The notes beneath the pieces are model-generated. The model saw nothing but the letters and a program-made list of their open reading frames with translations. It had not been told where the DNA came from and searched no databases. Of a stretch of 64,000 bases of DNA, positions 45,440 to 62,314 are shown in pieces. The stretch is from assembly GCA_944324225.1 (NCBI GenBank), contig CALUVL010000003.1, positions 1 to 64,000 on the forward strand, given 5' to 3'. Numbering within the stretch: position 1 is the stretch's first letter; each line of letters starts with the position of its first letter. The DNA comes from Candidatus Gastranaerophilales bacterium. Lineage in GTDB: Bacteria > Cyanobacteriota > Vampirovibrionia > Gastranaerophilales > Gastranaerophilaceae. The translations under genes were made by a program, and so were the position numbers.

Positions 45440-45480
45440 CGGAACCTTAACGGAACTTTTTGCGGAACTTAAACGGAACC
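45440..45480. repeat. Four iterated CGGAAC sites at the end of the retron gene
   Basis: GGAAC begins at 45441, 45452, 45464 and 45475, i.e. every 11-12 bp, each preceded by C. This one-turn spacing is typical of transposase- or repressor-binding sites at transposon ends. The RT gene stop codon lies on the last copy. Confidence 0.6.
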
Positions 45481-47129
45481 TACATATACTTCTCAATCAT
45501 ATTGATTTTTATAAAGGCATTATTTGTAGTTTTATCACTATCTTTGTAACTACTACCTCTAGTTGCAATCCCTACAACTTCGTTTCTTTTATTAAATATT
45601 GGACCACCACTATGACCTGTGATAATTGGAGTATCAACGCATATATGTTCAACAAGACTTATTGGTTTTGTTCTCGTTACTTTCATATCTCTTATATCCG
45701 GTTCATACTCTCCACCACGTTCTGGGAAACCAGCTAATTTAAGCATAGAACCAACTACGATATTTTGGCTATTTCCCATAGAGAAACCTTTGCTTGAAAA
45801 ATCTATATTCTTATTCTTTAGTCTAAAAACTACAATATCAATATGTTTATTGGACTTTAATACTTCTATTTCATAAGTATTCGTTGCATTTTGAAAAACT
45901 TTCAGATTATTCATTAATTTATCATTATTGCCATATACGCAATGATAACACGTAATAAAACCTACATTTTTTAGTAAAAAGGCAGTACCCTGTTTTGAGT
46001 CACTTTCAATTATCCATAGGTTATCTTTTATTACTTCTTGATAATTTTCTGGTATATGTCTAGCCCCATTTTCGTCTAGTTTATTAAATTTATTCATTAA
46101 TTTGGCATATACAAAATCATTTGCACCTCTTACATCCTTTATAAAATTAATTCTTCCTCTTAAAGTGCTTTTAAAATTATTTTTTTTACTATCAATAAAT
46201 AGTTTATCCTTATTTTTTGCAAGGTGATACTTTAAAGCTATATCCATTATTTCATCTGAGGATAGTTGAGGATTTTTCTTTTTATTAATTTCCCAATTAT
46301 AGAGCATAGATTTTGTATTTCTAATATATTGTCTTGGAATATTTGGTTTCTCATTGATTATTATACCTGTTACACTTTGTCGATTATTTTTATACTGAAT
46401 ACGAGTTTTTTTATCATTTATGCTAAATCCATTCATGATAATATATCGCTTTAATACATTTCCGATAATATGTTTTATTTCTTTAGTATCCTCATCATAT
46501 ATTATTTCTGCAATTTCTTTCGGAAATTCTTTTTGATTTGTTGAGAAAGTTATATCATCAGCATATCGTGAATAACTACAATGGAATGCTTTTGCCAATT
46601 GAGTCAGGTCATTATCTAATTTTCTACAAACAAAATTTGATATTATTGGGGATGTTGGTGCTCCTTGTGGGGTTATATTTTGTAAGCAACATATATTGCT
46701 TAGTATTTTAGATACCAAAATAGAAAACTCAAAAGGTTTATTTCGAAATATTCCAAAAACTCTTCCTTTGTTGATAGTTGGAAAAAAGTTTTCTAAATCT
46801 AAATTTAAAACAAGTCTTTTATTTAAATGGTAATTTGCATTTGTAATTATACTTTTATTTTTTACAAAACCATGAACAGGTTCTTTAACATCATAAAACT
46901 GCATCAGTATGTTATTTAATTTTTTCTGTAATAATTTTAGTGATTTTTTGGGTGCAAATATTGTACGATATTTACCATTTTTCTTGGGTATATCAAATTT
47001 AGTATACTTCTCATTGTCTTTTTGAATATTCAGCCAATAGTATAAGTGCCCGGTTTTTACATCTAAAACCTCTGCTAAATCAGATAATGTCTTAATATTT
47101 AAGAATTTTTGCTTTAACTCATCATTCAT
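45480..47129 (-). CDS. Retron-type reverse transcriptase fused to a trypsin-like protease
   Basis: A 549-aa two-domain protein. Residues about 1-330 are a reverse transcriptase with the retron hallmarks NANYH (NAxxH, about 97-101), YADD (189-192) and VTG (253-255). Residues about 375-549 form a chymotrypsin/trypsin-fold domain with His396 in FITCYHCV, Asp431 in HIDIVVF and Ser507 in TGHSGGP, a complete triad. Upstream in-frame ATGs lie inside the predicted ncRNA, so the start at 47129 is chosen; no clear Shine-Dalgarno. Retrons are anti-phage systems in which the RT and its msDNA restrain a toxic effector; here the effector is probably the fused protease. Confidence 0.92.
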   Translation of the reverse strand: MNDELKQKFLNIKTLSDLAEVLDVKTGHLYYWLNIQKDNEKYTKFDIPKKNGKYRTIFAPKKSLKLLQKKLNNILMQFYDVKEPVHGFVKNKSIITNANYHLNKRLVLNLDLENFFPTINKGRVFGIFRNKPFEFSILVSKILSNICCLQNITPQGAPTSPIISNFVCRKLDNDLTQLAKAFHCSYSRYADDITFSTNQKEFPKEIAEIIYDEDTKEIKHIIGNVLKRYIIMNGFSINDKKTRIQYKNNRQSVTGIIINEKPNIPRQYIRNTKSMLYNWEINKKKNPQLSSDEIMDIALKYHLAKNKDKLFIDSKKNNFKSTLRGRINFIKDVRGANDFVYAKLMNKFNKLDENGARHIPENYQEVIKDNLWIIESDSKQGTAFLLKNVGFITCYHCVYGNNDKLMNNLKVFQNATNTYEIEVLKSNKHIDIVVFRLKNKNIDFSSKGFSMGNSQNIVVGSMLKLAGFPERGGEYEPDIRDMKVTRTKPISLVEHICVDTPIITGHSGGPIFNKRNEVVGIATRGSSYKDSDKTTNNAFIKINMIEKYM

Positions 47130-47151
47130 ATTTCTACATATATATAAAAAC

Positions 47152-47273
47152 GGTATATAATTCATTTCCTTTGGCGTGCTGCATTGATATTGCACATTGC
47201 CAACTTGACTTATATGTAACCTCTAAAAAATCATTGCGATAAACTCAATGAAAAATTAATAGAATTATATACC
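47152..47273 (-). ncRNA. Candidate retron msr-msd RNA
   Basis: The 122-nt minus-strand segment just upstream of the RT start is bounded by a perfect 12-bp inverted repeat (GGTATATAATTC class, plus-strand 47152-47163 and 47262-47273), as expected for the a1/a2 repeats of retron RNAs. Inside are a 6-bp hairpin TCATTG/CAATGA (47231-47251) and a longer one (TTGGC..GCCAA with inner GTGC/GCAC, 47171-47203). The priming guanosine cannot be placed by eye. Confidence 0.6.
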
Positions 47274-47300
47274 TGTGTATATTTTACTACAAAAATATGT

Positions 47301-47615
47301 TTATTTATTCCTTTTCCCTTCAACATGCTCTTTTATTACTTTATAAACATATCTTTGAGTTGTATCACAAGCTTTAACTAGCTCGATTATATTTCTTCTT
47401 GTCGCAGTGTAGTTATCTATAATGTATTGTTTTTTATATGGTTGATTACAGTGAGCATGGATTGAAAACTTGTCTCCTGCGGCATTAAACATTAATTTCT
47501 TTGTTGCTTCTAATCCAATAATTTCGCAAAGTAATTTTAAATCTTCTGTTGGAAGATTCTCTTCTGTTATATATTTTGCCCATACAGGTTCTTTATTTTT
47601 AGAATTGCCTACCAT
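47301..47615 (-). CDS. Mor-family transcription regulator
   Basis: A 104-aa DNA-binding protein of the phage Mu Mor/C type. Seen: LLCEIIGLEATKKLMFNAAG (dimerisation half) and the C-terminal HTH YIIDNYTATRRNIIELVKAC followed by TTQRYVYKVIKEH. In Mu, Mor activates middle transcription. Here it is placed upstream of the retron RNA and RT on the same strand and is divergent from the MuA-like gene, so it may control both. GGAACC-type repeats lie in the 200-bp divergent gap. Confidence 0.85.
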   Translation of the reverse strand: MVGNSKNKEPVWAKYITEENLPTEDLKLLCEIIGLEATKKLMFNAAGDKFSIHAHCNQPYKKQYIIDNYTATRRNIIELVKACDTTQRYVYKVIKEHVEGKRNK

Positions 47616-47644
47616 GATATCCCTCTATCACTATTATATAACAA

Positions 47645-47675
47645 ACGGAACCATTTCCGGTTCCGTTTAGTTCCG
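47645..47675. repeat. GGAAC/GTTCC sites between Mor-like and MuA-like genes
   Basis: A perfect 10-bp inverted repeat AAACGGAACC/GGTTCCGTTT with a 6-bp spacer is followed by another GTTCCGTTT. It is the same word as the array at 45440-45480. By analogy with the Mu operator/internal activation sequence it may bind the regulator and the transposase N-terminus. Confidence 0.55.
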
Positions 47676-47837
47676 TTTGAAAAAGTTTCTTAAAATACTA
47701 CAAAAATTTTGCCTTTGCAATACCACAAAATCTTTGTTTTTGACGGTTTGAAGTGGCACTTATTGATATGTTTCGATATAGACACATTGACTACACTTTT
47801 CTAGAAAGCAGAGTTAATGTGTGAAAGGAGAAAAATT

Positions 47838-49808
47838 ATGCAAAATTCAAATGTAGACTGGATTACAACAAAAGAACTCGCTGAAATTAAAGGTATATCT
47901 GAAAGAGCTGTTCGTAAGTCCATCGCTAAAAACAAGTATGTTATAAGGAAAAGTTCAAAATCTTATGAAATTTTAGTAACATCTTTGGAAGAAAGCGTTA
48001 GAAAAAAAGTAACAGAACGCAGAGAAAAATCAACAGCACTTGTTCCAATTAATTATGTTGTTCCTGAAGAACAAAAGAAATTGGCTCTTGCAAAATATGA
48101 CCTGATTAAAAATTGGGATAAATTCAGGAATGAAAAAACCAACAAAACACAAGCAGGAAAAGATTTTCTTGATGCATACAATAATAATTGTTTATGCAAA
48201 AACTTATTTGTTGCAATAGGAAAAGTTGCTATCGGTACAATTTACGAATGGCATAAAAAACTTCGGGAATATAATGACGATTGGCATAGTTTAATCAATA
48301 ATTACACATTTGGAGCCAAAACAACAAAGACATTATTAACAGAAGCCGAGAAATCAGAACTACTAAAAAATCTCTTACATCCAAACCAGTTAAATATTGG
48401 GAAAGCTATTAAATATACTAAAATGGCATTAAAAGGCAGGGGATATGAAAATTTATGCTGTGATTTAACTTACCGAAGATTCGCAAATAATTACAAGGCG
48501 GAACATTATGATGTTTGGGTGGAAGCTCGTGAAGGAAATAAAGCTCTGCACGATAAAGTTCTCCCATATATTACAAGAGACGTTTCAAAACTTGAAGTCG
48601 GAGATGTCATCATTGGCGATGGGCATAGATTAGCATTTTTTGTTAGGAACCCATACACAGGAAATCCTGTCAGACCAACATTAGTTGCGTACCAAGATTG
48701 GAAATCAGGCGGCTTTGTAGGTTTTGAGATAATGCTTGAAGAAAATACTCAATGTATTGCTTCTGCGTTAAGAAATTCAATTATAAATCTCGGTAAAGTT
48801 CCAAGATTTGTATATCAGGATAACGGTAAAGCCTTTAAAGCGAAATATTTTACAGAGGACGGGATAGCGGGTTTGTTTAAAAATCTTGGTATTCAAGCCA
48901 TATCAGCTAAACCATATAACGCAAAAGCAAAACCAATTGAAAGATTATTCAGGGAATTACAAGACAGTTTTGAAGTTATGCTCCCGTCGTACACAGGGAC
49001 AAGTATTGTGAAAAAGCCGGCACAACTTAAAAGAAATGAAAAACTCCATAAAGAGTTATTCAAATTAAATATTCAAACAATAGAGCAAGTTATTTTAGTT
49101 TTAAATGCTTGGTTGCAAAAATATCATTATGAACAACCTTGTCCACATGTTGAAGGTAAAACAATAGGTGAAGTTCTTGAATCAGGTAAGGGCGAAGGAG
49201 TTAATATTGAAACTTTAGATGATCTTATGATGGCTCGTGAAATCAAGAAAATCCAGAGAAACGGAATAAAATTCTTAAAAAACGATTATTATGATCCTGC
49301 TTTATATGGTTATAAGAAAAATGTAATTATAAAATACAGTTTGTTCGATTTAAGTTCAATTAAGGTTTTCAAATTAGACGGAAAATTTATGTGCGAAGCA
49401 AAGAGGGTAGAACCTATAAACCCGATAGCAAATTATATGGGTACTCCTAAAGATATTGAAGATTTAAAACAAAAAACAAAATTGAAGAAGCAATTAGAAA
49501 AACGAACAGAAACTGAATTTGTAAATCACTTAAAAAGAGCACAAGTACATAATCCTTTGTTAACGATAGATTTACCAGAAAAACAGGAAGCTGATGAAAT
49601 TGAACAATTTAGTATTGAAGTAAAAAAACAAGCAGATGAAGAAATTTTCAATGGTATTTTCAAAAATAAATACGAAAAATATGAATATTTGCTCCAAAAA
49701 GATAATCTAACCAAAGACGAACAAGACTGGATTAAAGAATACAGGAAAACTGGTGAATACGAATTAATATACTGTGATGAAAGTGATAAGGAGGTAATTG
49801 ATGCATAA
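47838..49808 (+). CDS. Mu-like (MuA) DDE transposase
   Basis: A 656-aa DDE transposase. The start at 47838 follows AAGGAG by 7 bp. Residues about 8-60 form a MuA-type N-terminal DNA-binding domain (WITTKELAEIKGISERAV). The RNase-H-fold core has Asp261 in VIIGDGH, Asp328 in FVYQDNGKAF and Glu368 in KPIERLFRE. A C-terminal acidic/helical region follows, which in MuA contacts the MuB ATPase. The stop overlaps the MuB-like start. It cuts and joins transposon ends in the cytoplasm. Confidence 0.95.
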   Translation: MQNSNVDWITTKELAEIKGISERAVRKSIAKNKYVIRKSSKSYEILVTSLEESVRKKVTERREKSTALVPINYVVPEEQKKLALAKYDLIKNWDKFRNEKTNKTQAGKDFLDAYNNNCLCKNLFVAIGKVAIGTIYEWHKKLREYNDDWHSLINNYTFGAKTTKTLLTEAEKSELLKNLLHPNQLNIGKAIKYTKMALKGRGYENLCCDLTYRRFANNYKAEHYDVWVEAREGNKALHDKVLPYITRDVSKLEVGDVIIGDGHRLAFFVRNPYTGNPVRPTLVAYQDWKSGGFVGFEIMLEENTQCIASALRNSIINLGKVPRFVYQDNGKAFKAKYFTEDGIAGLFKNLGIQAISAKPYNAKAKPIERLFRELQDSFEVMLPSYTGTSIVKKPAQLKRNEKLHKELFKLNIQTIEQVILVLNAWLQKYHYEQPCPHVEGKTIGEVLESGKGEGVNIETLDDLMMAREIKKIQRNGIKFLKNDYYDPALYGYKKNVIIKYSLFDLSSIKVFKLDGKFMCEAKRVEPINPIANYMGTPKDIEDLKQKTKLKKQLEKRTETEFVNHLKRAQVHNPLLTIDLPEKQEADEIEQFSIEVKKQADEEIFNGIFKNKYEKYEYLLQKDNLTKDEQDWIKEYRKTGEYELIYCDESDKEVIDA

Positions 49809-50490
49809 ATTGTTTGTTAAAACTCGTAATGTCAAAAACTTTATCGGATTAATGAATAATCTGATAGACAAATCAAATGAAGTTCCTAAAATGGGATTAG
49901 TTTACGGTGATCCCGGATTAGGTAAAACTCAAACTGCCGTATGGTGGGCTACAAGAAATGATGCGGTTTATGTCAGAGCCCAAAACAAAATGACCAGCAG
50001 ATGGCTAATGGAAAAAATTGTTTTTGAACTCGGAGAATCACCATCAAGAAAAATGGCTAACCTTATGGAACAATGTATTGCTCATTTGAGGTTAAAACCG
50101 CAAGTAATAATTATTGATGAAATTGATTATCTTATAAGTCGCAATAAAATTATTGAGACTATCAGAGATGTACACGATTTAACCGGAACACCTGTTGTAT
50201 TAATCGGTATGCAGGAAGCCAAAACAAAACTCGGCAAATACAGGCATCTATACGACAGGTTATCCGAAATCATAGAATTTAAACCTTTTTCTAAAGAGGA
50301 TAGGGAGGTTATCGTTGAAGAATTATCCGAAATTAAGATAACAGATGAGGCAAAAGAAATATTTTTTGAAAAAACTAATCGCTTTCGCCAGATTATAAAA
50401 GGAATTTCATTGCTTGAAAATTTAGCGGCGACAAACGGATTAAACAAAATTGATGTAAAACAAGTGAAAGGATTGAACATTGAAAAGTAG
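49801..50490 (+). CDS. MuB-like AAA+ ATPase, transposition target protein
   Basis: A 229-aa ATPase. Walker A is GDPGLGKTQT (about residue 40) and Walker B is VIIIDEIDYL (about 103), followed by a sensor-like VVLIGM. MuB-type proteins bind target DNA, stimulate the transposase and give target immunity. GAGG lies 6 bp before the ATG at 49801. It overlaps the transposase stop by 8 bp and the next gene by 11 bp, so the three genes are one translationally coupled unit. Confidence 0.93.
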   Translation: MHKLFVKTRNVKNFIGLMNNLIDKSNEVPKMGLVYGDPGLGKTQTAVWWATRNDAVYVRAQNKMTSRWLMEKIVFELGESPSRKMANLMEQCIAHLRLKPQVIIIDEIDYLISRNKIIETIRDVHDLTGTPVVLIGMQEAKTKLGKYRHLYDRLSEIIEFKPFSKEDREVIVEELSEIKITDEAKEIFFEKTNRFRQIIKGISLLENLAATNGLNKIDVKQVKGLNIEK

Positions 50491-52129
50491 AGATTTAATA
50501 ATAAAAACAGCAAGAAGATTAGATAAATTTAATCTTGATGAATTAATAGTTGTATCAGAACTTGACGAAAAAGAAGTAACAGAAATTTTATCAGATTTAA
50601 TTAAACAACAAATTATTTTGAAAAATAATAATACTTATTTTTTCAATACTAAAAAATCTGTTGAAATTACCAATAATGACGGGGATGAAACAATAAGTGA
50701 ATTTAAACCGATAGTTATAGAGAAAGAGGAAGGTTATGAGGCTTTTCTGAAATTTGGAGAAGAAACTCAAAATCGGGTAAGAGCCTATGTGGGATTATTA
50801 AACTTAATTCACCAAGCAGGAACTAAAAATATAAATAAAGTTGTAGAATTGTTTAATGAGACCTCCGGTTATCCAAGAGTATCACCATCAGCTTTTACAA
50901 GAGTTCGCAAAAAATACAGCCAATATGGTTTTAGAGGAATACTGCCAAAATACAGTAAACATATAACAGTTGCAATTCCTGATGAAATATATACTTGTTT
51001 CAAAAAATATTATTTAACCAATGAAAAATTATCTGCTCAAGAAGCAATATACCGAGCTCAAAAAGAATTACAATCTGAGCAAAAGATAGAACAGCCCTAT
51101 GCTTATACTTCTACCCCTTTTGTAAGAAAAGTAAGAACGGAATTCACAAAAGAGCAAATTGAATATTTCAGAAATAATATAGAGGCTCAAAAACCAAAAA
51201 TTGAGACAATTAAAGTAAAAGAACCTCTTGACATGAAGTTTGAGAAAGCTGCATACATATATTTAAAACATCTAAAAATGGAAAACAAACTTGAAAGATT
51301 AATGCACGATAAAACTAATTATAAAAACCATTTAAAACCATATTTTGATAATTTATCAATAAGAGAAATAACGACAAAAGTTGTGGCTCAATTTAAACAA
51401 AGTATGTTTGATAACGGATTTCAACTTGTATCAGTAAATATTTATATTACATTACTGAAATTAATTATAAAAACCGTTTGTCCTTTAACAAATAGTCTTG
51501 TCGTAAGAAATAACTCTAAACAAAAAGTTTATAGTGTTGATATGAATATTTTATCAGATAAGAAAATTACCGAATTACTAAATATTTGTAAGAAAAAATA
51601 TCCTGCTGCATACCCTGTAATTTATTTGAGCTTATCAACGGGAGCAAGTGTCCCTGAAATATTAGCCTTAACTTGGGAAAGGATAAATTTTGAAGATAAT
51701 ACTGTATTTTTGAAATATTTTCTTTACGAACAACGTCTTGTTATGAATAGATGCGGATCGACAATACGAAAATTAAAATTTGATGACAATATTTCCGGTA
51801 TTCTGAAAAAGAAATTTGAAGGAACAAAACCAGAATTAACGGATTTTGTATTCAAATTTGACTCTCCAAAATCTCCTCAACAGTACATTGAAAATGTTGT
51901 ATTAAGAGGATTATCTGCACATCTTGGGATAGTAAGACTGCACCCAAGCGATTTACAACACAATTTTGTGAATATGTGCTTAAAACAAAATATTCCGATT
52001 ACTTTTATTCAAAAAGCATTAGGATACTATGGTTTACCCAATTTTATAAGAATATACAAAGATTTAATTGCGAATTTGGATAAAGGAAATTATAATCCGC
52101 TCAATAAAATTTTAGAAAATAAGGAGTAA
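50480..52129 (+). CDS. Tyrosine-recombinase-fold protein lacking most catalytic residues
   Basis: A 549-aa protein read from a TTG that follows AAAGGA. Residues about 5-60 look like a winged helix. The middle (about 100-200) resembles the HTH region of transposases (QYGFRGILPKY). The C-terminal 300 residues have the core-binding and catalytic layout of phage integrases (PEILALTWERINF), but the first Arg is missing (TGASVPE), HxLRH is HPSDLQHNF, and LGH is LGYYGLP. Only the His of HPSD and the Tyr in RIYKDL remain. It is probably a DNA-binding accessory factor of transposition. Confidence 0.8.
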   Translation: MKSRDLIIKTARRLDKFNLDELIVVSELDEKEVTEILSDLIKQQIILKNNNTYFFNTKKSVEITNNDGDETISEFKPIVIEKEEGYEAFLKFGEETQNRVRAYVGLLNLIHQAGTKNINKVVELFNETSGYPRVSPSAFTRVRKKYSQYGFRGILPKYSKHITVAIPDEIYTCFKKYYLTNEKLSAQEAIYRAQKELQSEQKIEQPYAYTSTPFVRKVRTEFTKEQIEYFRNNIEAQKPKIETIKVKEPLDMKFEKAAYIYLKHLKMENKLERLMHDKTNYKNHLKPYFDNLSIREITTKVVAQFKQSMFDNGFQLVSVNIYITLLKLIIKTVCPLTNSLVVRNNSKQKVYSVDMNILSDKKITELLNICKKKYPAAYPVIYLSLSTGASVPEILALTWERINFEDNTVFLKYFLYEQRLVMNRCGSTIRKLKFDDNISGILKKKFEGTKPELTDFVFKFDSPKSPQQYIENVVLRGLSAHLGIVRLHPSDLQHNFVNMCLKQNIPITFIQKALGYYGLPNFIRIYKDLIANLDKGNYNPLNKILENKE

Positions 52130-52131
52130 TT

Positions 52132-52560
52132 ATGAAAAAACAATTATTGGCAGAGTCTGCCGCTAAACTATATATTGAAAAATTAATGACATTAGAAAAT
52201 ATCGCTCAACGGTTAAATGTAAATGAAAGAACACTTCGCCGTTGGAAATCAGCAGATAAATGGGATGAAAAACGTTCAGAATATCTTAAAAGTAATACGA
52301 CTTTTCACGAGGATTTGTATAAATTCGGGAGGAACCTGTTAGATTCTATACAAAATGATATGGTAAAAGGTGAAAAGATTGAACCGGCAAGAATGTATGC
52401 TGTAACTAAAATTATGACAATGCTAAAAAATGTAAAAATATACGAGGATAAAGTAACTAGAGAAAAACACATGCCGGAAGCAACAAAACCTGAAGGACTA
52501 TCTCCTGAAGTCATAAGAGAAATTGAAGAGAAAATTTTAGGAATAACTTATGAGGACTAA
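52132..52560 (+). CDS. Terminase-small-subunit-like HTH protein
   Basis: A 142-aa protein with an N-terminal HTH, YIEKLMTLENIAQRLNVNE then RTLRRWKSADKWDEKRS. This matches phage terminase small subunits and DUF1804 proteins of Mu-like phages. A helical middle and a charged C-terminus follow. AGGAG precedes the ATG, and it lies 2 bp after the previous stop, so it is the fourth gene of the Mu-like operon. No large terminase, portal or structural gene follows. It may be a phage relic or a DNA-binding helper. Confidence 0.75.
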   Translation: MKKQLLAESAAKLYIEKLMTLENIAQRLNVNERTLRRWKSADKWDEKRSEYLKSNTTFHEDLYKFGRNLLDSIQNDMVKGEKIEPARMYAVTKIMTMLKNVKIYEDKVTREKHMPEATKPEGLSPEVIREIEEKILGITYED

Positions 52561-52587
52561 AATTTTAAAATTGTTTTTAACGGTTTT

Positions 52588-52680
52588 AAATATATTCAAA
52601 TGAGGTTTTATATATAAATTACATTTACCCCATCTTAATCGACCGGTTGAACACCTTTTGAACAACGTTTGAATATATTT
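52588..52680. repeat. 13-bp inverted repeats with TTGAAC array
   Basis: A perfect 13-bp inverted repeat AAATATATTCAAA (52588-52600) / TTTGAATATATTT (52668-52680). The right part contains TTGAAC/T words at 52647, 52658 and 52669, exactly 11 bp apart. It lies between the Mu-like operon and the recombinase gene and could be a transposon end or regulator-binding region. Confidence 0.5.
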
Positions 52681-52756
52681 TGATGTCATAATTTATTGTC
52701 ATACCTTTAAATGTTTAAATTATAAAGACATTTGTTAATTAAGAAAGGACTAAAAC

Positions 52757-53311
52757 ATGAATATTGTTGAACCAATAAGAAATAAAAAGCATTTGCACAA
52801 AGTAGAAAAAATTCTTCTGAATGAATCCGGGAATTATGGATTAAGAAATTTACTTATATGTTTATTTGGTACAAATTGCGGCTTAAGAATTTCTGATATT
52901 CTTAATCTAAATGTAAAAGATGTAAAAAACAAATCTTATGTAGAACTAACTGAAATTAAGACAGGTAAGCATAAAAAATTTCCAATCAACGATAAATTAA
53001 AACCTTTAATTTATGAGTTCACAAAAGATAGAGATAATGATGAGCCGTTATTTATTTCAAAATTTGGCAATAGAATGGAGAGGACTCAATGTTATCGAAT
53101 TTTAAATGAGGCATGTAGAAAGGCCGGTATTGATTATAAAATAGGAACACATACCTTAAGAAAAACTTTTGGGTATCATCACTATAAAAAATATAAAGAT
53201 GTAGCAATTTTACAAAAAATATTTAATCATTCTTCCCCATTAGTTACTTCAATTTATATAGGAATAAATCAAGACATACTAGATGATAGTTACATGAAAT
53301 TTATTCTATAA
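52757..53311 (+). CDS. FimB-size tyrosine recombinase
   Basis: A 184-aa site-specific recombinase made of the catalytic domain only, with no arm-binding domain. The full set of active residues is visible: Arg in NCGLRISDIL, Lys in IKTGKHKKFP, HTLRKTFGYH, His in FNHSSPLV and the nucleophile Tyr in TSIYIG. AAAGGA precedes the ATG. Its size matches FimB/FimE and Mpi-type invertases that flip promoters of surface genes. A segment with inverted repeats and a polysaccharide operon follow immediately. Confidence 0.9.
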   Translation: MNIVEPIRNKKHLHKVEKILLNESGNYGLRNLLICLFGTNCGLRISDILNLNVKDVKNKSYVELTEIKTGKHKKFPINDKLKPLIYEFTKDRDNDEPLFISKFGNRMERTQCYRILNEACRKAGIDYKIGTHTLRKTFGYHHYKKYKDVAILQKIFNHSSPLVTSIYIGINQDILDDSYMKFIL

Positions 53312-53353
53312 TCCAAACATAAACACTAATTCAACATATTATTTTTACAACAT

Positions 53354-53683
53354 AATTATACTTTTGTTGAGTTAGGTGTAAAACTCTTACTCAACAAATA
53401 ATAACACAAATATACAAAATTATAAAAAATAATTTTTGAATTAAAAGAATAGCCCAAAACCTTTTTATATAAGCATTTTTCGTAATTAGATATCCTTAAC
53501 AGATTTATACTTTTGTTGAGTTGGCATGCCAGATATTTATATAATTCCGTAATATTAGTATGTTTTAGGTATTAAATACCTAAAATAATATGTTGAGAAA
53601 AAAATACTATTTTTGTAATTTGTATAAGGTAGAAATATAGATTACAAAAGCATTATAGGCATTATTGCAACAAAAGTATAATT
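53354..53683. repeat. Inverted repeats bounding a putative invertible promoter segment
   Basis: AATTATACTTTTGTTG occurs at 53354-53369 and its exact complement at 53668-53683. A third copy, TTATACTTTTGTTGAGTT, is at 53505-53522 in the same direction as the first and shares 18 bp with it. The region also holds a perfect 23-bp palindrome at 53563-53585. The segment sits between the recombinase and the first polysaccharide gene. Confidence 0.65.
53613..53641 (+). promoter_or_regulatory. Promoter inside the putative invertible segment
   Basis: TTGTAA, a 17-bp spacer, TATAGA, reading toward the polysaccharide operon in the orientation given. If the segment inverts, it would point away from the operon. 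Confidence 0.5.
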
Positions 53684-53719
53684 CTGATGAAAAATGAGAA
53701 TATGGAATTAGGGAGTAAT

Positions 53720-55561
53720 ATGGATAAAGAAATTAATATATGCCTATCTTGTGATAATAACTATGCAAGGCATGCAGGGGTTACAATTACATCTATTGTA
53801 TATAATGCTGATAAATGTGATAATTACCATTTTTATATTTTGGACAATGGCATTGACGAAGCGTTTAAGCAAAAGATAATGTCTATAACAAAGTCACCCA
53901 TAACATTTTTTCACGTCAATGAAGAGGATTTTAAGATATTTAAACAAATTACAACTCACAAATATATTACCCTTCCAGCTTATTTTAGGTTAAAAATTGC
54001 TTCTTATTTCCCTAATTTAGACAAAGTTATATATCTTGATTGTGATACAATTATTAATACCAATTTGAGAAGACTAAATAACATAGATATTTCTGGCTAT
54101 TTACTTGCTGGAGTACAAGATATTAAAAAAAGTATAGTAGAACAAAATCCAACTTATGTAAATTCCGGAGTTTTAGTTTTTAACCTCGATAGAATACGAA
54201 AAGAACATATAGAAGAAAATTTTTTTGAATATACACAGAAACATATGGCTGAAATTGTTTGTGGGGATCAAGAAATAATTAATCAAGTATGTAAGGGAAG
54301 AATAAAACTAATAGATACTTTATGGAATGTCCAAACCGGCAGTTTTATAAATCGTTCTAATTTTACAAAACATCCATATATTATCCATTACACATCAAAA
54401 CAAAAACCGTGGAATTTTGGTTCTTTTAGTTACAATAAACATTTTTACTTTAAATATTTACAAAAATCACCTTGGGCACTACCCCAAAAAGATTTAATAT
54501 ATTGGTTATTGTGGAATAATATTGTATCAATGTTAAAATTTGCAAAAGAAAAGCCAAGATTTATTTTGAGGTCAAGATGGCAACGTGCGTTTTACTATAC
54601 GTATATACAAAATAGTAAACTATTGAAATCTATATTTTCAATAGACAAAGCCAAGAATAATACAACAAGACACCTTAAAATAACTTTGCTGGGAATCAGA
54701 TTTAAAATTTTACGTAAAGAATATTTAAATGAAAGAAGACTGTTTAGTAAGAAATATAGTAATCTTACTATGAATATTAAAAATATTCCCCCTGCAACCG
54801 GTTCATTAAGATTGATACAAAGGGCAAATTTTAGATTATTAAAGATATTTGATGGTATATGTAAAGAGAACAATATCAAATATTGGTTGGATTTTGGTAC
54901 TTTGCTAGGTGCTACCCGCCACAAAGGTTTTATACCTTGGGATGATGATATTGATGTTGGAATGTTAAGAGAAGATTACGAAAGGTTCATCGAACTTTTT
55001 GAAAATGAGTTTCCAGACCATCCTGCGTTAGATTTAGTATATAGTAATAATCATAAGCATAAATGTTTTATAAAAGTTAAATATAAAGAAACAGAAAATA
55101 TTTGTATTGATATTTTTCCTTATGATAAATATTGTACATGCCTTGATGAAAAAGGGAAAAAAGAAATTTCTCGCATAATTACAAATATAACAAAACTTAA
55201 ATGGTATGAAAATTTAAGATATTACAGAACTAATGAAAATATGCGTAACTTTTTAAAAAAAATGACATTTGATAAAATTTTAAAAAATAGACCAGTTAAA
55301 GATAAAAATCCTGCAATATTCATGGCAATAGATTTCCCACACAAATGGAAAAATAAAGTCTACGACTGGGAAACTATTTTTCCTTTAACTAACATTCAAT
55401 TTGAAGACTGTCAATTTCCAGCACCAGCAAATGTTGATAAGGTATTAAGTGGAATTTATGGAAACTATATGAGAATTCCAAAAGATTCCTACCCTCGTCA
55501 TACTGGATATCTAAAGATGAAAGAAGAGGAGAAAAATTTGCTAGAGGAGTTAGTAAAATGA
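53720..55561 (+). CDS. GT8 glycosyltransferase fused to LicD phosphotransferase
   Basis: A 613-aa protein from the ATG after AGGGAG (an ATG at 53687 is possible). Residues about 1-330 are GT8: ICLSCDNNYARHAGVTITSI, KVIYLDCDTIINTNL with the DXD, and CGDQEIINQV. A hinge with LKITLLGIRFKILRKE follows. Residues about 375-600 are LicD: YWLDFGTLLGATRHKGFIPWDDDIDVGM. LicD enzymes put phosphocholine or similar groups on sugars. With tagD next door, the group here may be glycerol phosphate. The stop overlaps tagD by 4 bp. Confidence 0.9.
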   Translation: MDKEINICLSCDNNYARHAGVTITSIVYNADKCDNYHFYILDNGIDEAFKQKIMSITKSPITFFHVNEEDFKIFKQITTHKYITLPAYFRLKIASYFPNLDKVIYLDCDTIINTNLRRLNNIDISGYLLAGVQDIKKSIVEQNPTYVNSGVLVFNLDRIRKEHIEENFFEYTQKHMAEIVCGDQEIINQVCKGRIKLIDTLWNVQTGSFINRSNFTKHPYIIHYTSKQKPWNFGSFSYNKHFYFKYLQKSPWALPQKDLIYWLLWNNIVSMLKFAKEKPRFILRSRWQRAFYYTYIQNSKLLKSIFSIDKAKNNTTRHLKITLLGIRFKILRKEYLNERRLFSKKYSNLTMNIKNIPPATGSLRLIQRANFRLLKIFDGICKENNIKYWLDFGTLLGATRHKGFIPWDDDIDVGMLREDYERFIELFENEFPDHPALDLVYSNNHKHKCFIKVKYKETENICIDIFPYDKYCTCLDEKGKKEISRIITNITKLKWYENLRYYRTNENMRNFLKKMTFDKILKNRPVKDKNPAIFMAIDFPHKWKNKVYDWETIFPLTNIQFEDCQFPAPANVDKVLSGIYGNYMRIPKDSYPRHTGYLKMKEEEKNLLEELVK

Positions 55562-55974
55562 AAAGAGTAATAACATACGGAACATTTGATGTATTACATT
55601 ATGGACACATGAATTTGCTGAAAAGAGCAAAAATTCTTGGCGATTATTTGATAGTAGGATTATCCGATGATAAATTTAATGCGATAAAAAACAAAAGATC
55701 TTACTATACCTATGATCAACGAAAAATGATGCTCGAAGCTTGCAGGTATGTAGATCTCGTTATACCTGAAAATACTTGGGAACAAAAAATTGAAGATATT
55801 CAAAAATATCAAGCAGACGTATTTGTTATGGGAAATGACTGGAGTGGGAAATTTGATTATTTAAAAGATTACTGTGAGGTCATTTATCTCCCTCGCACCC
55901 CCGAAGTTTCTAGCACAAAGATAAAATATTATTTAAGCCATATAGGAGATAAATATGTTCAAAAAGTTATTTAA
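55558..55974 (+). CDS. tagD: Glycerol-3-phosphate cytidylyltransferase
   Basis: A 138-aa nucleotidyltransferase that makes CDP-glycerol from CTP and sn-glycerol-3-phosphate. The HXGH motif is VLHYGHMNLLKRA and the C-terminal RTPEVSSTKIK corresponds to the RTXGISTT signature. Near-normal length for TagD. It overlaps the LicD gene (ATGA) and the next gene by 20 bp. No TagB/TagF polymerase is present, so CDP-glycerol probably serves a single glycerol phosphate decoration by LicD. Confidence 0.94.
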   Translation: MKRVITYGTFDVLHYGHMNLLKRAKILGDYLIVGLSDDKFNAIKNKRSYYTYDQRKMMLEACRYVDLVIPENTWEQKIEDIQKYQADVFVMGNDWSGKFDYLKDYCEVIYLPRTPEVSSTKIKYYLSHIGDKYVQKVI

Positions 55975-56803
55975 AGTCGAAAACAATTTATTTTATAAGA
56001 CATATAAAATTTTTGGCATAAAATTTTCAAGACGAAAAGGGAAAGATTCATTAACTACTGATGATCTGCGTTGTTATTCAATGGCTTCGCAAGTAAATTC
56101 TAAACTTGAAAAATACCGTGGTTGTTTTACAGATAAAAATGTAGTGATAATCGGTGGCGGCCCTTCATTAAAATATTTAGATACTTTACCGAAAAATGCC
56201 ATCAAAATAGGTATAAACAGGGCTTATCAAATGAAAGATATTAAGTTCGATTATCTTTTTGCTCAGGACAAATTTAAAAAGCAGGAAGATATTGACGGAT
56301 TCGTTGATTATAATCCGAATTCTTGTATCAAATTTATTGGTTTACATACAAAACAAAATCTAATAAGAATAAGACCGGCAGCAATTTCAAAAATTAAAAA
56401 GAAAGAAATGTATGTATTAAATAACAGGCGACCACAGGAGACTTTAACACCTATTGATATATCGTTAGAGCCTTTTGCTTGGTATAGCGGAACTGTTTTT
56501 GCCGCTCTACAATTTTGTTTGTTTGCCAATGCGAAAAAAATTTATTTGGCAGGATTTGATTGTTCAAATGACGGACACGCGTTCTCTGATAATAAAGTGG
56601 AATATAAACAAGCCCATCAATATGAATATTGGGAATATTTTAAAAACTTTAAAGATACATATTTTGAAGAAACTGAATTTGTTTCAATCAACCCGATAAA
56701 TTTAAAAAATCTGTTTCGGAATGTTTATACTCGTCAATATTTAGAAAATAATCCTAATATTAAAAACGAAGATGTAGAAATTTTGGAAGGGGATAACATT
56801 TAA
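55955..56803 (+). CDS. DUF115/6-hydroxymethylpterin-pyrophosphokinase-like glycan protein
   Basis: A 282-aa protein. The nucleotide-binding-like motif VVIIGGGPSLKYLDTLPKNA and the block GFDCSNDGHAFSDNKV match DUF115-type proteins, found in polysaccharide loci and in Maf flagellin glycosylation factors. The first 25 residues hold the short FYKTYKIFGIKFSRRKG segment that recurs in this cluster. It overlaps tagD by 20 bp and shares one base with the next gene. Probably a glycosyltransferase; donor unknown. Confidence 0.75.
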   Translation: MFKKLFKVENNLFYKTYKIFGIKFSRRKGKDSLTTDDLRCYSMASQVNSKLEKYRGCFTDKNVVIIGGGPSLKYLDTLPKNAIKIGINRAYQMKDIKFDYLFAQDKFKKQEDIDGFVDYNPNSCIKFIGLHTKQNLIRIRPAAISKIKKKEMYVLNNRRPQETLTPIDISLEPFAWYSGTVFAALQFCLFANAKKIYLAGFDCSNDGHAFSDNKVEYKQAHQYEYWEYFKNFKDTYFEETEFVSINPINLKNLFRNVYTRQYLENNPNIKNEDVEILEGDNI

Positions 56804-57876
56804 TGACAAAGTTTCTATCAATAAGTTCTAACTTTGAAAATACTCATACAGTTATCAATATTTTAGGACTGAAACTTAAAATCAAAAAGAAAAATACCTT
56901 TGAATTAAGAACAGAAAAGTTATTGGTAAAACTTTGGAGTATGCAATACGACAATTCGTTTAATGCCTTTTTACAACAATATATATTGATAAATAAAGAT
57001 TTTATGTCGCCACAAATCTCACTTATTGCGATTTCGACATTAATTGAGAACAAATCGTATGCACAGGCAGAGTTTTTGATAAATAAGCATATCAAAAAAT
57101 ACGGAATAACTGATATTCCAAAGTTTTTATTAGTTTCATCATTTTGTCAAAGTATAAATATTACCAGTAATGAAATAGTTAAATCTGCAAAAATATACGA
57201 ACATATTAAAAACAACCAAGAAAAATTACTGTTAGAAAAAATATTATTGAATAAAACCGTTGCTATTGTTGGAAATAGCCCCTGCGAAATAGGGCAAAAT
57301 AAAGGCTCTGAAATTGATAAAAATGATTTAGTTATTAAGTTTAACAACTTTTCTAATTCTGAAAAGTATCAAAACGATTACGGAACAAAGAATGATATAT
57401 GGATGATTGCAGGAAATATTACAAAAAAGAATTATGATAATCATTTTGAAACTTTAAAAATGGTTATTGTTGCAGATGATATTGAACATTGTGTTTTTAC
57501 AGATGAATTTCGGAGCTTTTTGTATGAAATAATTGCTAATACACAAATCCCGATTACGAGTTTGAAATTTGAATATAGAAAGAATTTAAGAAATAAATAT
57601 AATTTAATTCACCCCTCAACAGGGTTTCAAATTATAAATTATATTCACGATAACAGAAACACTATTAAAGATATCAGTATTTACGGGTTCAGTTTCAATG
57701 ATAGCAAAGAGGGAGTTAAGAAAAATATGTTTAATAAATATTTTCAAGAAAGAACACCTTTTTACATTATTCATAATTATTACAAAGAAAGCGAAATTTT
57801 ATCCGAATTATTGCAAAAAAAAGGAGTTAGAGTAAATGATACCAAAGCGAATATTTTATGTATGGGGAGCGAATGA
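56803..57876 (+). CDS. GT29 (sialyltransferase-family)-like glycosyltransferase
   Basis: A 357-aa protein. Residues about 151-182 match sialylmotif L (VAIVGNSPCEIGQNKGSEID, then NDLVIKFNN). Residues about 270-298 match motif S (HPSTGFQIINYI, then ISIYGFSF), and His324-x4-Glu329 in IIHNYYKESE fits motif VS. GT29 enzymes use CMP-sugars. No CMP-sialate synthesis genes are in the window, so the donor could be sialic acid, Kdo or another CMP sugar. The N-terminal 140 residues are helical and unassigned. It overlaps the next gene by 41 bp. Confidence 0.78.
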   Translation: MTKFLSISSNFENTHTVINILGLKLKIKKKNTFELRTEKLLVKLWSMQYDNSFNAFLQQYILINKDFMSPQISLIAISTLIENKSYAQAEFLINKHIKKYGITDIPKFLLVSSFCQSINITSNEIVKSAKIYEHIKNNQEKLLLEKILLNKTVAIVGNSPCEIGQNKGSEIDKNDLVIKFNNFSNSEKYQNDYGTKNDIWMIAGNITKKNYDNHFETLKMVIVADDIEHCVFTDEFRSFLYEIIANTQIPITSLKFEYRKNLRNKYNLIHPSTGFQIINYIHDNRNTIKDISIYGFSFNDSKEGVKKNMFNKYFQERTPFYIIHNYYKESEILSELLQKKGVRVNDTKANILCMGSE

Positions 57877-58714
57877 ACCAAAAGGCAAAGCTGAGTTAAT
57901 GTGTCTATTCTCTTGGTTTCAAAATTTAAAAGATTTTGAAATAATTGAAATCAATGATAATTCTACAGAATATTTTAATTTCCAAGAAGAACTAAAAAAT
58001 AATAAATGGTTTAAAACTGTATATGACAGAAAAATGTGGGCTTATGTTGCAGATTATATTCGTATAAAAACACTATACGACAACGGCGGAGTTTACTTTG
58101 ATACAGATGTTATGGCAATAAAAGATTTAACTCCGTTGCTAGATAATCCCGCTTTTGTGGGTATTCAAAGTTATGATAGAACAGAACCTGCAATACTAGG
58201 TGCAGAAAAGGGTAATCCTTTTTTAAAACAGATGTTGGATTTTTACAATGACGAAATTTGGCATAGTAGCCTTTATAAATGTCCGGATCTTTTTAAACAT
58301 TTTTTAGAATTAAATTATGGCAAGCAAGAATACGATTTCGACAATATAGATGATGAAGTTAGGCAATACAAAGATATTACACTTTATCCTCGTAAGTATT
58401 TAATACCATTTTCGCCTGCTCAAATTCGCAAAGAGGATATCCGTAAAATTTCTGAAGATACATATACTATTCATTGGTACAAAGGCAGTTGGTCAAAACC
58501 TGAAATATTTTACTTTTTAGAAAATAAAAATAAATATAACCTTAGTTATCTTGATGAAAAATGCAAACAAATAAAAACAAAATCCGAAAAAGGTTTTCAG
58601 TACAACAATATATTTGAAAGAATTTTTTCTATTAAAGACAGTTATAAAAAATCTAAAAAATATAGGATATTTACAATCTTTGGAATACAAATAAAACATT
58701 CCGTAAAATTATAG
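57836..58714 (+). CDS. GT32-family glycosyltransferase
   Basis: A 292-aa enzyme beginning MIPKRIFYVWGANEP, the family start, followed by the DXD block VADYIRIKTLYDNGGVYFDTDVMA. GT32 members act on capsular and LPS side chains. The start is set by AAGGAG 10 bp upstream, which places it 41 bp inside the GT29-like gene. Its tail YRIFTIFGIQIKHSVKL is the recurrent short cluster motif. Confidence 0.92.
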   Translation: MIPKRIFYVWGANEPKGKAELMCLFSWFQNLKDFEIIEINDNSTEYFNFQEELKNNKWFKTVYDRKMWAYVADYIRIKTLYDNGGVYFDTDVMAIKDLTPLLDNPAFVGIQSYDRTEPAILGAEKGNPFLKQMLDFYNDEIWHSSLYKCPDLFKHFLELNYGKQEYDFDNIDDEVRQYKDITLYPRKYLIPFSPAQIRKEDIRKISEDTYTIHWYKGSWSKPEIFYFLENKNKYNLSYLDEKCKQIKTKSEKGFQYNNIFERIFSIKDSYKKSKKYRIFTIFGIQIKHSVKL

Positions 58715-58723
58715 GAGTATGAG

Positions 58724-59749
58724 GTGAAAGCAGTAATATTGGCCGGCGGAAATGGCAGTCGCTTATGGCCGTTATCAAATGAAGAATATCCGAAACAATT
58801 ATTATCATTTTTTGATGATAATGAAAGTTTGTTGCAAAAAACATATTTAAGGTTATTAAATATTGTTGATTCTGACGATATTTTGACTATTACAAATTCA
58901 AAGCATTTTGCCAATGTAAAAAAGCAACTTGACTATATTCGCACTTCAAACATTATTGCTGAGCCCCTATCAAAAAATACCGCACCGGCAATCTTTTGTG
59001 CATTAAAATATTTTTTAGATAAGGGTATATCTGAAGATGAAATAGTCTTAGTTTTACCATCCGATCATTTAATAAAAAATTGTAATTTATTTTCAAAATC
59101 AGTTGATAATGGGAAGGAACTTGCAAAGAATGGTTTTATTGTTACATTCGGAGTTAAACCAACTTATCCTGAAACCGGATATGGTTATGTAAAAGTTAAT
59201 TCTACTTTTGAAACAGGTTATAAAGTTGAAAAATTCGTTGAAAAGCCGAATTTAGAACTTGCAAATAAGTATATACAAGACAATAAATATTTTTGGAATA
59301 GTGGAATGTTTATGGGTAAAATCTCCACATTTATGAGTGAATTTAGTCTAAATGCTCCTGATATTTATAAAAATTTTGAAAACCTAAATTTTATTGATAA
59401 AAATGAAATATCCGTAGAAATTTATGAAAAAATGCCATCAATATCCATTGATTATGCAATTATGGAAAAATCACAAAATATTGCATTGGTAGAATTGGAA
59501 TCAGATTGGAGTGATTTAGGCTCTTGGCAGTCATTATACAATGTTCAAGAAAAAGATGATAACGGTAATGTTGTTTTCGGAAATGTTATTGCTGATAATA
59601 TAAAAAATTCATTTATTTATTCAACAAAAAATTTAGTGGCTACAACATTTATAGAAAATCTTGCTATAATAAATACAGATAATGCGACAATAATTTTACC
59701 ATTGGATAAATCTCAAATGGTGAAGAATTTATATGAGTTAAATAAATAA
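58724..59749 (+). CDS. manC: Mannose-1-phosphate guanylyltransferase
   Basis: A 341-aa enzyme making GDP-mannose. Catalytic signature AGGNGSRLWPLSNEEYPKQLL; then ILPSDHLI-type LPSDH, FVEKPNLELANKYI with the Lys, and WSDLGSWQSLY. It starts at a GTG preceded by GAG. The second isomerase domain of bifunctional ManC is absent; this is the short form. It supplies GDP-mannose, or GDP-fucose/rhamnose precursors, to the cluster. Confidence 0.92.
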   Translation: MKAVILAGGNGSRLWPLSNEEYPKQLLSFFDDNESLLQKTYLRLLNIVDSDDILTITNSKHFANVKKQLDYIRTSNIIAEPLSKNTAPAIFCALKYFLDKGISEDEIVLVLPSDHLIKNCNLFSKSVDNGKELAKNGFIVTFGVKPTYPETGYGYVKVNSTFETGYKVEKFVEKPNLELANKYIQDNKYFWNSGMFMGKISTFMSEFSLNAPDIYKNFENLNFIDKNEISVEIYEKMPSISIDYAIMEKSQNIALVELESDWSDLGSWQSLYNVQEKDDNGNVVFGNVIADNIKNSFIYSTKNLVATTFIENLAIINTDNATIILPLDKSQMVKNLYELNK

Positions 59750-59769
59750 TAAAAAATACGGAAATATCA

Positions 59770-60888
59770 ATGAATAATAAAGAAAATAAAATTATAAAAC
59801 AACATTTAGAATATATGTTAATAAGTGCTTTTGATTTTTTAGAATTTTCTGCTGAAAATTTTGAAAATAAGCCAAAATATTCTATTATACATTATGCTTC
59901 TGCTATAGAATTATTTTTGAAGTCTCGACTATACGAAGAACATTGGTCATTAATTATGGATAAACCTAATATCCAGCATTTAAAGCAGAATAATTTTCAT
60001 ACTATTGGTTTTAGTAATTTAATTGAACAATACAAGAATGTATTTAATGTAAATGATAAGGAAGTAAAAAACGCATTGCAATGTTTTCACAGTATTGCAC
60101 AAGATAGAAACCAAGCAGTTCATTTTTACCACAAAAATATAGAATTAAATTCTGATGATGAAAAAATTACAATTGCTACAAAACAACTAAGAGCGTGGAA
60201 TTACTTAAAACTATTTTTACAGAATTGGGAACCTGTTTTAGGGAAATACATAAAAGATTATACTGACAAAATTGTTCTATGTGATAATTTACTACAATCA
60301 CATTCAAAGTATCTTGAAATTAAGTATAATTCTATAAAAGATACTATAAATGATAAAATTAAAAATGGTGCAAATTATGTAAAATGTGAAAATTGTGGTT
60401 ATAAAGCCGTAAATTTAAAGCAAAAAGAAAGTATAAATTTATATAGTGGTGTATGTGAGGTTTGTAATTTTGACAAAAATTATGCTTTAAAAATAAAATG
60501 CCCATATGATAATACAGAATTTACAATTTTTAAGAATGACTTAATAAATGAAAATATAATTTGCCCAAACTGCCATAATAAATTAGGATACGAAGATTTA
60601 TTCAATATAAGTGATAATTTGTCAGATGAAAAAATTAACTGTAATTCCTGTTTAAGCGATGATTGCGTAATAAAACAGAAAAATTTAAACACTTATAAAA
60701 AATATTATGATAGCGTATATATATGTTTAAAATGTCTTGAAGTTACTAATTCAGAAAATTATTGTCAATATTGTAATCAATCACAAATAGGAAATAAATC
60801 TTTAGATAATAGTTATTTTATGGGTTGTGATTGGTGTGAAGGTTTATTACTTAGAGATTTACAGACTGGTGAATATGGTATAATGTAA
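59770..60888 (+). CDS. HEPN-like protein with C-terminal zinc ribbons
   Basis: A 372-aa protein. The helical N-terminal 170 residues have HEPN features: YASAIELFLKSRLYE and DRNQAVHFYHK, where Arg113-x4-His118 matches the Rx4-6H RNase motif. The C-terminal half carries at least four CxxC pairs in zinc-ribbon style (CENCGY..CEVCN, CPYD..CPNCH, CLKC..CQYC, CDWC). HEPN proteins are often toxins or antiviral RNases. It lies 20 bp after manC, so it may be transcribed with the sugar genes. Function not established. Confidence 0.65.
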   Translation: MNNKENKIIKQHLEYMLISAFDFLEFSAENFENKPKYSIIHYASAIELFLKSRLYEEHWSLIMDKPNIQHLKQNNFHTIGFSNLIEQYKNVFNVNDKEVKNALQCFHSIAQDRNQAVHFYHKNIELNSDDEKITIATKQLRAWNYLKLFLQNWEPVLGKYIKDYTDKIVLCDNLLQSHSKYLEIKYNSIKDTINDKIKNGANYVKCENCGYKAVNLKQKESINLYSGVCEVCNFDKNYALKIKCPYDNTEFTIFKNDLINENIICPNCHNKLGYEDLFNISDNLSDEKINCNSCLSDDCVIKQKNLNTYKKYYDSVYICLKCLEVTNSENYCQYCNQSQIGNKSLDNSYFMGCDWCEGLLLRDLQTGEYGIM

Positions 60889-60935
60889 CATCTAAACTAA
60901 TTTGGCTATATAATAGAAGACAATTAATTAACGAC

Positions 60936-60964
60936 TTGACGAAACAACATCTACGATAGATAAT
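60936..60964 (+). promoter_or_regulatory. Promoter of the gene at 61063
   Basis: TTGACG, a 17-bp spacer, GATAAT, about 100 bp upstream of the ATG; AAGGAAG forms the ribosome binding site. Confidence 0.6.
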
Positions 60965-61062
60965 GGTCGAAAAATATCTTGCGAATATCTAATTTAATAA
61001 TGCCAATTAAAGGTAATTAGTATAAAAATTTTCAGAAAATGTAATAAAAAAGGAAGAATAAA

Positions 61063-62067
61063 ATGCAAGAACAATTTATTATTATGGTATGGAAATTTTT
61101 TAAAAATCCTGCTATTATTGCAGCTTTAATTTCTACCGTTGTTACTGGTTTTATAAATTTAAAAAATGGGGAATCTGCAAAACTTTCTGCTCTATATAAT
61201 CATAAATACAAATTTTGGTTGGATTTTAGTAAAAAATTTTTTAGAATAAAGCCTTTTCTTGACCGTATGATAAATCCATTTAATTGTTCCGCTGGTATAA
61301 TAACTTATCAAGGGAAAGTTGAAACCTTAAAAAATTTTTCGAAATGGATAGTAGAATGGAATGAATTTAATGAGTTAGTAAATGAAAATGAAGTGATTTA
61401 TATGCGACCACAAGAAATTGATACTTTGTTATTAAATTGCTTTTTTACTTCATTGAAAGAACACCTCCCAAGATTAGATCTTAAAGAAAACTTAGGTAAT
61501 ATTGAAACATATACAATTCCAAGCGAGTTTATTAATAAAGTTTTTATAGATGCTAAAAAATATTTTGATGACAATGTAAGAGAAGATTCAAAATTATTTT
61601 ATCAATACTTAAAAATCTTAGATAAAAAATCAAAAAATAAAAAGTCAAAATATAATGAAATTGCGAAATTTTTAAATGATACTGATATTGATAATATTAT
61701 GAATAAGTTATCAAATGAAATATTTTTAGAGCTAATCAAATTAAATCTTGATGATATAAGTAAAAAACTTGAAGAAATTGTATCAATAGAACCAGTGCCT
61801 AAAAAAATATTTTTTAAAATCAAAAAATGGTGGAGGAAGCATAAACCAAACAATTTTAAAAAATGGCTTAGTTATCCATATAATAAAAAACAACTTCAAA
61901 TAAATAAAACTTTTAGAATAATACTCATAATATTGTTACTGTTGCTTGTTACTGGTGGTCTTTGGTTTTTGTCCGATAATTTATATAGCTTTTGTGGACA
62001 TATCTCTGTTATAGTCATACTAATTTTGTTACATTATCTATTTAATCTTTTGTTTGCCAATAAATAA
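61063..62067 (+). CDS. Hypothetical membrane protein of the island
   Basis: A 334-aa protein I do not recognise. It has one hydrophobic segment near the N-terminus (IIAALISTVVTGFINL), a long cytosolic helical domain rich in Lys, Asp and Phe (about 40-270), and two C-terminal membrane helices (IILIILLLLLVTGGLWFL and ISVIVILILLHYLFNLLF). Such layouts occur among membrane effectors of phage-defence genes, but there is no motif that proves it. It has its own promoter. Confidence 0.68.
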   Translation: MQEQFIIMVWKFFKNPAIIAALISTVVTGFINLKNGESAKLSALYNHKYKFWLDFSKKFFRIKPFLDRMINPFNCSAGIITYQGKVETLKNFSKWIVEWNEFNELVNENEVIYMRPQEIDTLLLNCFFTSLKEHLPRLDLKENLGNIETYTIPSEFINKVFIDAKKYFDDNVREDSKLFYQYLKILDKKSKNKKSKYNEIAKFLNDTDIDNIMNKLSNEIFLELIKLNLDDISKKLEEIVSIEPVPKKIFFKIKKWWRKHKPNNFKKWLSYPYNKKQLQINKTFRIILIILLLLLVTGGLWFLSDNLYSFCGHISVIVILILLHYLFNLLFANK

Positions 62068-62314
62068 CTTTTGCAAAATAAGATCATAAATTATTTCTCA
62101 TTAAATATAAGTTGCTCCAACCATTCCTGAATATATAATAAATTATGTTGTTATTTTTCTGAGAATTTGTGTTACTTTTTCTGCTTTCTCATGTTAATTA
62201 ACAAAACCAAATTATAACCGCCGTTTGCCCTAATTTTACTAACTTGGACGGATAAAACGATTATTAGACTTTTGAAGTAAATAAAGTCCGATTAGATTAT
62301 TTTAAAATTTCTTT
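62068..62314. other. Right flank of the island
   Basis: AT-rich, without an open frame of note. It holds AAAGTCCGATTA at 62283-62294, the complement of TAATCGGACTTT at 23-34, and a small dyad around GACTTT/AAAGTC. It may be near an element end. Confidence 0.4.

Follow-up and report, generated by a model that had tools for sequence, protein, structure and literature searches.

The window analysed here, a stretch of 64,000 nucleotides, comes from a Candidatus Gastranaerophilales genome of 1.93 Mb. It contains a Mu-like mobile element in which transposition genes are followed by a small tyrosine recombinase gene, a short region with repeats and an operon of polysaccharide genes. The element and its genes are listed here by coordinates, strand and description.

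45179-62203, no strand: Mu-like mobile element carrying the putative switch, 17 kb, with ends TGTAAAC... to ...TTAATTAACA
45480-47195, minus: retron type XI reverse transcriptase-protease, a second cargo (PADLOC RT-Protease_XI, E=6e-167)
47301-47615, minus: Mor-like late activator (phrog_836, E=7e-6)
47817-49808, plus: MuA-type transposase (PF09299, PF02914; phrog_310, E=4e-102)
49798-50490, plus: MuB/TniB-type ATPase (PF05621; phrog_296)
50480-52129, plus: 549-aa tyrosine integrase of the element (PF00589; phrog_1)
52132-52560, plus: 142-aa DNA-binding protein, terminase-small/DUF1804-like (profile matches)
52757-53311, plus: 184-aa tyrosine recombinase, putative cognate invertase (PF00589, E=1.5e-27)
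53687-55561, plus: GT8 glycosyltransferase-LicD phosphotransferase fusion (PF01501, PF04991), first gene of the operon; likely start 53720, behind GGGAG
55558-55974, plus: glycerol-3-phosphate cytidylyltransferase, TagD type (TIGR01518 above cutoff)
55955-56803, plus: uncharacterised protein (weak MptE-like match)
56803-57876, plus: GT29 sialyltransferase-like protein (PF00777)
57836-58714, plus: DXD-type glycosyltransferase (PF04488)
58724-59749, plus: mannose-1-phosphate guanylyltransferase-like protein (PF00483, ManC helix domain; TIGR01479 below cutoff)
59770-60888: HEC-08/DUF3644 candidate defence protein, within the element and beyond the polysaccharide operon

The first-pass annotation had placed a tyrosine recombinase of 184 residues next to a pair of repeats, and its open reading frame does end 42 bp before the repeat. 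Alignment showed that its catalytic residues R44, K68, H132, R135, H158 and Y167 are all present, and comparison with the homologue in a roe-deer genome (L065) gave a dN/dS of 0.002/0.40. The protein is 24% identical to FimB and 27% identical to FimE, and it scored outside the FimB/FimE-type subfamily (NF007371, 51.8 versus a cutoff of 222; NF007370, 44.8 versus 221). Six further relatives are encoded in its own genome. Recombinases about 45% identical to it are common in streptococcal phages (for example, MK448821.1), where they are annotated only as integrase or recombinase.

The region between this gene and the operon contains the candidate recombination sites, the segments between them and two promoter-like motifs.

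53331-53345, plus: 15-bp repeat TCAACATATTATTTT, an exact pair with the inverted copy at 53582-53596 (minus)
53346-53371, plus: recombination site A, TACAACA-TAATTATACTTT-TGTTGAG, 7-bp arms around a 12-bp centre; ACA-N12-TGT core at 53350-53367
53372-53498, no strand: invertible segment A-B
53398-53410, minus: extended -10 motif TTTGTGTTATTAT, 13/13 match, inside A-B and near site A
53499-53516, plus: core of recombination site B, ACA-N12-TGT; breakpoint of the observed inversion
53519-53667, no strand: invertible segment B-C, 149 bp
53613-53641, plus: TTGTAA-N17-TATAGA, inside B-C; weak
53670-53687, minus: core of recombination site C, TCA-N12-TGT on the minus strand (TCA replaces ACA)

Exact 16-bp inverted repeats (AATTATACTTTTGTTG) with 298 bp between their arms were found as originally described, and so was a third copy in direct orientation (53498-53522, 25 nt, 92% identical to 53349-53373). 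We found that one site form, with arms of about 7 bp, a 12-bp centre and ACA-N12-TGT, fits A, B and C; the same form with different arms occurs at many other loci. The window's genome contains no second close copy of the window site, and a single site family common to many invertons of the genome was rejected for that reason. Several features had been overlooked in the first reading: the shorter repeat pair formed by B and C, with a 149-bp gap, which is the pair actually seen inverted; the promoter motif in A-B; and the second exact repeat pair at 53331-53345 and 53582-53596, which is a possible accessory binding site. Positions 53332-53355 share 22-24 of 24 bases with a sequence that precedes a MarR-family gene adjacent to efflux genes. 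This MarR-type match occurs in about 30 relatives and on the genome's own contig C8 (42350-42373), and the stretch is possibly a MarR operator at the switch.

Comparison with related genomes revealed different orientations of this region. In a sister species of the same genus (genome G003; locus L064, CALUPW010000001.1), in which the recombinase gene is 100% identical, positions 53500-53686 of the window are reversed at 98% identity over 187 bp, both flanks are colinear and the breakpoints are repeats B and C. The roe-deer genome has the same exact reversal of B-C at 79% identity; here repeats B and C are altered in concert (ATACAAGTGTTG / CAACACTTGTAT) and A is unaltered. Reversal of A-B relative to the window was seen only in the more distant relatives L066 (81%), L067 (77%) and L068, where the recombinase side remained colinear, whereas close relatives show the B-C inversion. 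L067 resembles an A-C inversion of the G003 state; inversion of A-C is documented only there, at 63-69% identity, and not between close relatives. These comparisons indicate that the segment does invert and that both orientations occur in nature. The reversal of A-B in L066, L067 and L068 suggests that A-B and B-C change orientation separately over time, and because B-C is reversed in close relatives and A-B in distant ones, the pattern is that of a three-site switch rather than the simple 298-bp flip between A and C that had been proposed. In G003, the first base of contig C12 is also that of repeat C (53668), and contigs C12 and C1 (at its end) overlap by exactly 74 bp; a break at repeat C is the graph branch that would be expected if the reads held both orientations.

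The extended -10 motif in A-B, the strongest promoter candidate of the region, was also recovered by a consensus promoter scan, as TTTATA-17-TATTAT with TG. Across 49 non-redundant inverton segments, the motif TTTGTGNTAWNAT matched at 12 or more of its 13 positions in 24 segments (6.5% of shuffles) and perfectly in nine, compared with 0.16% of shuffles. It usually lies 17-28 bp from the nearer repeat, with about 25 bp typical, and is directed away from the operon at most loci and towards it at some. The motif was derived partly from loci of the same set, and the perfect matches at L069, L095, L117 and L120 were not used in its definition. In the window it is currently directed away from the operon on the minus strand, which predicts that the switch is OFF; this is probably the state of the window. 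The promoter originally proposed, TTGTAA-N17-TATAGA, is present from position 53613, but it is not conserved in L065 and is not among the three sites that the consensus scan found in the region (4.4 expected). We therefore rejected it as the main promoter, and it would be secondary at best.

To place the locus among its relatives, we used 72 homologous recombinase loci of Candidatus Gastranaerophilales with enough sequence, examining the 450 bp downstream of each stop codon, with order-1 shuffles for comparison. Exact inverted repeats of at least 12 bp were found downstream in 48 of the 72 loci versus four of 69 upstream regions and 5.5% of shuffles. For repeats of at least 16 bp (60-500 bp gap), the corresponding figures were 30 of 72, 0 of 69 and 0.14%. 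On the strength of these shuffle and upstream controls, chance repeats in AT-rich DNA were rejected as an explanation; no exact repeats were detected for about a third of the homologous recombinases. Natural inversions were also seen elsewhere: 189 bp ahead of a Stealth phosphotransferase gene is reversed at 97% identity between L080 and L081/L082, a third case separates L075 from L122, and L138 versus L139 is a shorter and weaker one. The first genes downstream mostly encode glycosyltransferases, sugar transferases, Stealth, LicD and GLF proteins. The repeat sequences diverge in step with those of the recombinases (r=0.62, 0/2000 permutations; r=0.36, 0/2000 in the non-redundant set), suggesting that each recombinase serves its own site. 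Repeats lie downstream of the recombinase in the IMG/VR gut contigs L174, L176, L178 and L179 and are mostly lacking in the 45%-identical phage relatives, so the module is not universal to the recombinase family.

On the Mu-like phage-type contig L178 (IMG/VR 3300028571), genes of the MuB, gp16-like and Mor-like kinds precede the recombinase, inverted repeats and sugar-transfer genes; L176 (also IMG/VR 3300028571) has similar repeats, and the two are possible cases of phage-borne, phase-variable polysaccharide modification. On the genome's own contig C19 (35700-38017; L018, L019), two further recombinase-repeat modules stand side by side, the first of them after phage structural-type genes. 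The inverton of that first module has the same orientation in all five of the close copies compared (L088, L093, L096, L098 and the genome's own) and may thus be locked.

We also found paralogues of the recombinase that are catalytically dead, one on the genome's own contig C10 (25093-25605, L144) and others at 15 further loci in 146 genomes. They lack the histidine of HxxR, most also lack the first arginine and the second histidine, and about half lack the tyrosine. Comparison of the C10 paralogue with its G007 counterpart (dN 0.04, dS 1.09) indicated purifying selection, and inverted repeats lie just upstream in ten of 16 dead paralogues. Such genes (L144, L145-L159, L084, L087, L105 and L108) are often the first gene behind an inverton. 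Our guess is that they regulate inversion; the window locus has no dead recombinase partner.

The mobile element had also escaped notice. We set the ends of the element by comparison with G003 and with the genome's own contig C14: both ends are common to the window and G003, and the left end is also in C14. Candidate ends near 47.1 and 52.7 kb had given weak matches only and were replaced by this comparison. The G003 copy lies in another genomic context, with a 5-bp target duplication (CAAGA) on both sides; the window copy has no recognisable target duplication. The switch is cargo of a Mu-like transposon rather than a fixed capsule locus. Cargo differs between copies: the window copy carries retron XI, in which the reverse transcriptase is fused to a trypsin-like protease, together with the switch and the polysaccharide operon, whereas the C14 copy (L261, C14:36000-52000) has AbiH and a DUF1016/YhcG-type nuclease in the slot of the window's switch. 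No capsid, head or tail genes were noticed among the open reading frames at 45.2-62.2 kb, part of which were screened for phage structural families. Identity between the window and G003 is mostly 91-99% within the element and about 74% for a neighbouring chromosomal gene, a difference that suggests recent transfer of the element. A second Mu-like element is nested within the G003 copy (L259/L260, G003:C12:about 7708-27718); it has its own retron-like reverse transcriptase, an apparently frameshifted (broken) recombinase and no repeats.

Together, these data make it very likely that the locus is a phase-variation switch of Candidatus Gastranaerophilales that a Mu-like transposon carries as cargo. 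In our model, the 184-aa recombinase would recognise a 26-bp site (two arms around 12 bp) present in three copies, of which A and B are direct and C is inverted, and would invert the DNA lying between sites of opposite orientation. The 149-bp segment B-C would flip, and the A-B part would do so over longer times, most simply via inversion of A-C. With A-B turned round, the extended -10 promoter would stand about 28 bp inside site C and read into the operon of GT8-LicD, TagD, sialyltransferase-like and ManC-like genes, the window orientation being OFF. The predicted outcome is reversible, heritable variation of surface polysaccharide decoration, and we infer the ON/OFF effect on transcription and the surface phenotype. 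The earlier reading as an invertible promoter keeps its core, a promoter-bearing segment with a Fim-size recombinase and polysaccharide genes, which the inversions between genomes support well; its account of which segment flips was replaced.

A segment that inverts could instead change the leader RNA, a terminator or recombinase expression, or be neutral, without acting as an on/off promoter. The sole close-range inversion, B-C, leaves the conserved promoter motif in place because that motif lies outside B-C; B-C contains a perfect AT-rich palindrome (TTTTAGGTATTAAATACCTAAAA), and the count of consensus promoters in the window is at chance. Against this explanation, a promoter motif at nearly fixed spacing from the repeat is found in about half of the invertons, in both orientations and ahead of similar operons, and we consider it unlikely. 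Slightly less likely still is that another recombinase inverts the DNA (the 549-aa integrase, XerC/D or a paralogue elsewhere) and that the 184-aa protein is a bystander, a possibility favoured by the six relatives in the genome and the presence of the 549-aa integrase within the element. However, L065 to L068 keep the sites beside the 184-aa gene and have no match to the 549-aa integrase in up to 3 kb of upstream sequence, sites co-diverge with the adjacent recombinases and the catalytic residues of the 184-aa protein are complete. We infer that the 184-aa recombinase catalyses the inversion.

Differences in orientation might also arise during assembly, as all the genomes compared are metagenome assemblies and the repeats are short. 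Repeats of 12-20 bp are nevertheless much shorter than assembly k-mers, an equally precise reversal of this kind occurs in several unrelated loci from different projects and the recombinase-side flanks are colinear, which makes an artefact very improbable. The least credible alternative is that the repeats are Mu-type transposase binding sites, that is, transposon ends. Mu ends contain multiple copies of a binding site, and the MuA and MuB genes lie directly upstream of the switch; yet the element ends at 45179 and 62203, 8 kb off on either side, with unrelated terminal sequence, the inversion between the repeats is precise and the same arrangement also occurs without Mu genes. The inversion data refute transposon ends as the main explanation.

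Beyond the switch itself, we tentatively put forward, as a possibility that we would not call probable, that a family of Mu-like transposons of Gastranaerophilales moves ready-made phase-variable surface-polysaccharide cassettes and anti-phage cargo (retron XI, AbiH and HEC-08) between species, each cassette with its own recombinase and site. Three sites would give four orientation states, and in some cassettes the first gene after the switch would encode a dead recombinase that serves as a feedback regulator of inversion. Melainabacteria are a common, poorly cultured gut lineage near cyanobacteria. If these interpretations hold, individual switches could control many of their surface-sugar operons, the transposon would spread switches between species along with anti-phage genes, uniting the variation of receptors with defence against phages on a single mobile unit, and regulation of an invertible switch by dead recombinases would be new. 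We found no description of phase variation by DNA inversion in Melainabacteria in the open-access papers searched, which leave out most subscription literature, and this absence is weak evidence of novelty.

The closest parallel is E. coli fimS with FimB/FimE, which likewise combines a promoter segment of a few hundred base pairs, short inverted repeats, a recombinase of about 200 aa and surface genes; a pair of recombinase genes is also present at some Gastranaerophilales loci. Unlike fim, the locus described here has three sites rather than two, a Mu-like carrier and a recombinase below the NCBIfam cutoffs for tyrosine-type DNA invertases, and where Gastranaerophilales loci have a second gene, it follows the switch and its product is missing catalytic residues. 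Our claim is that the locus represents a Fim-like inverton whose tyrosine recombinase belongs to a different clade. Bacteroides capsule switches use the serine invertase Mpi, which acts at many loci, and Tsr tyrosine recombinases. They too have polysaccharide operons preceded by invertible promoters, with several in a genome, whereas the loci described here, in another phylum, each have a separate recombinase and a separate site sequence. Clostridioides difficile RecV acts at the flagellar switch (PMC7446863) and Streptococcus pneumoniae PsrA inverts DNA in vitro (PMC7096588); both invert short segments, as is proposed for the recombinase described here. The element shares MuA, MuB and Mor-like genes, TG...CA-type ends and a 5-bp target duplication (in G003) with Mu-like phages and transposons, and differs from them in its cargo, which comprises a retron, HEC-08 and a phase-variable operon for polysaccharide. 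The principle of a Fim-type switch is known, whereas the host phylum, the mobile setting, the three-site layout and the dead partners look new.
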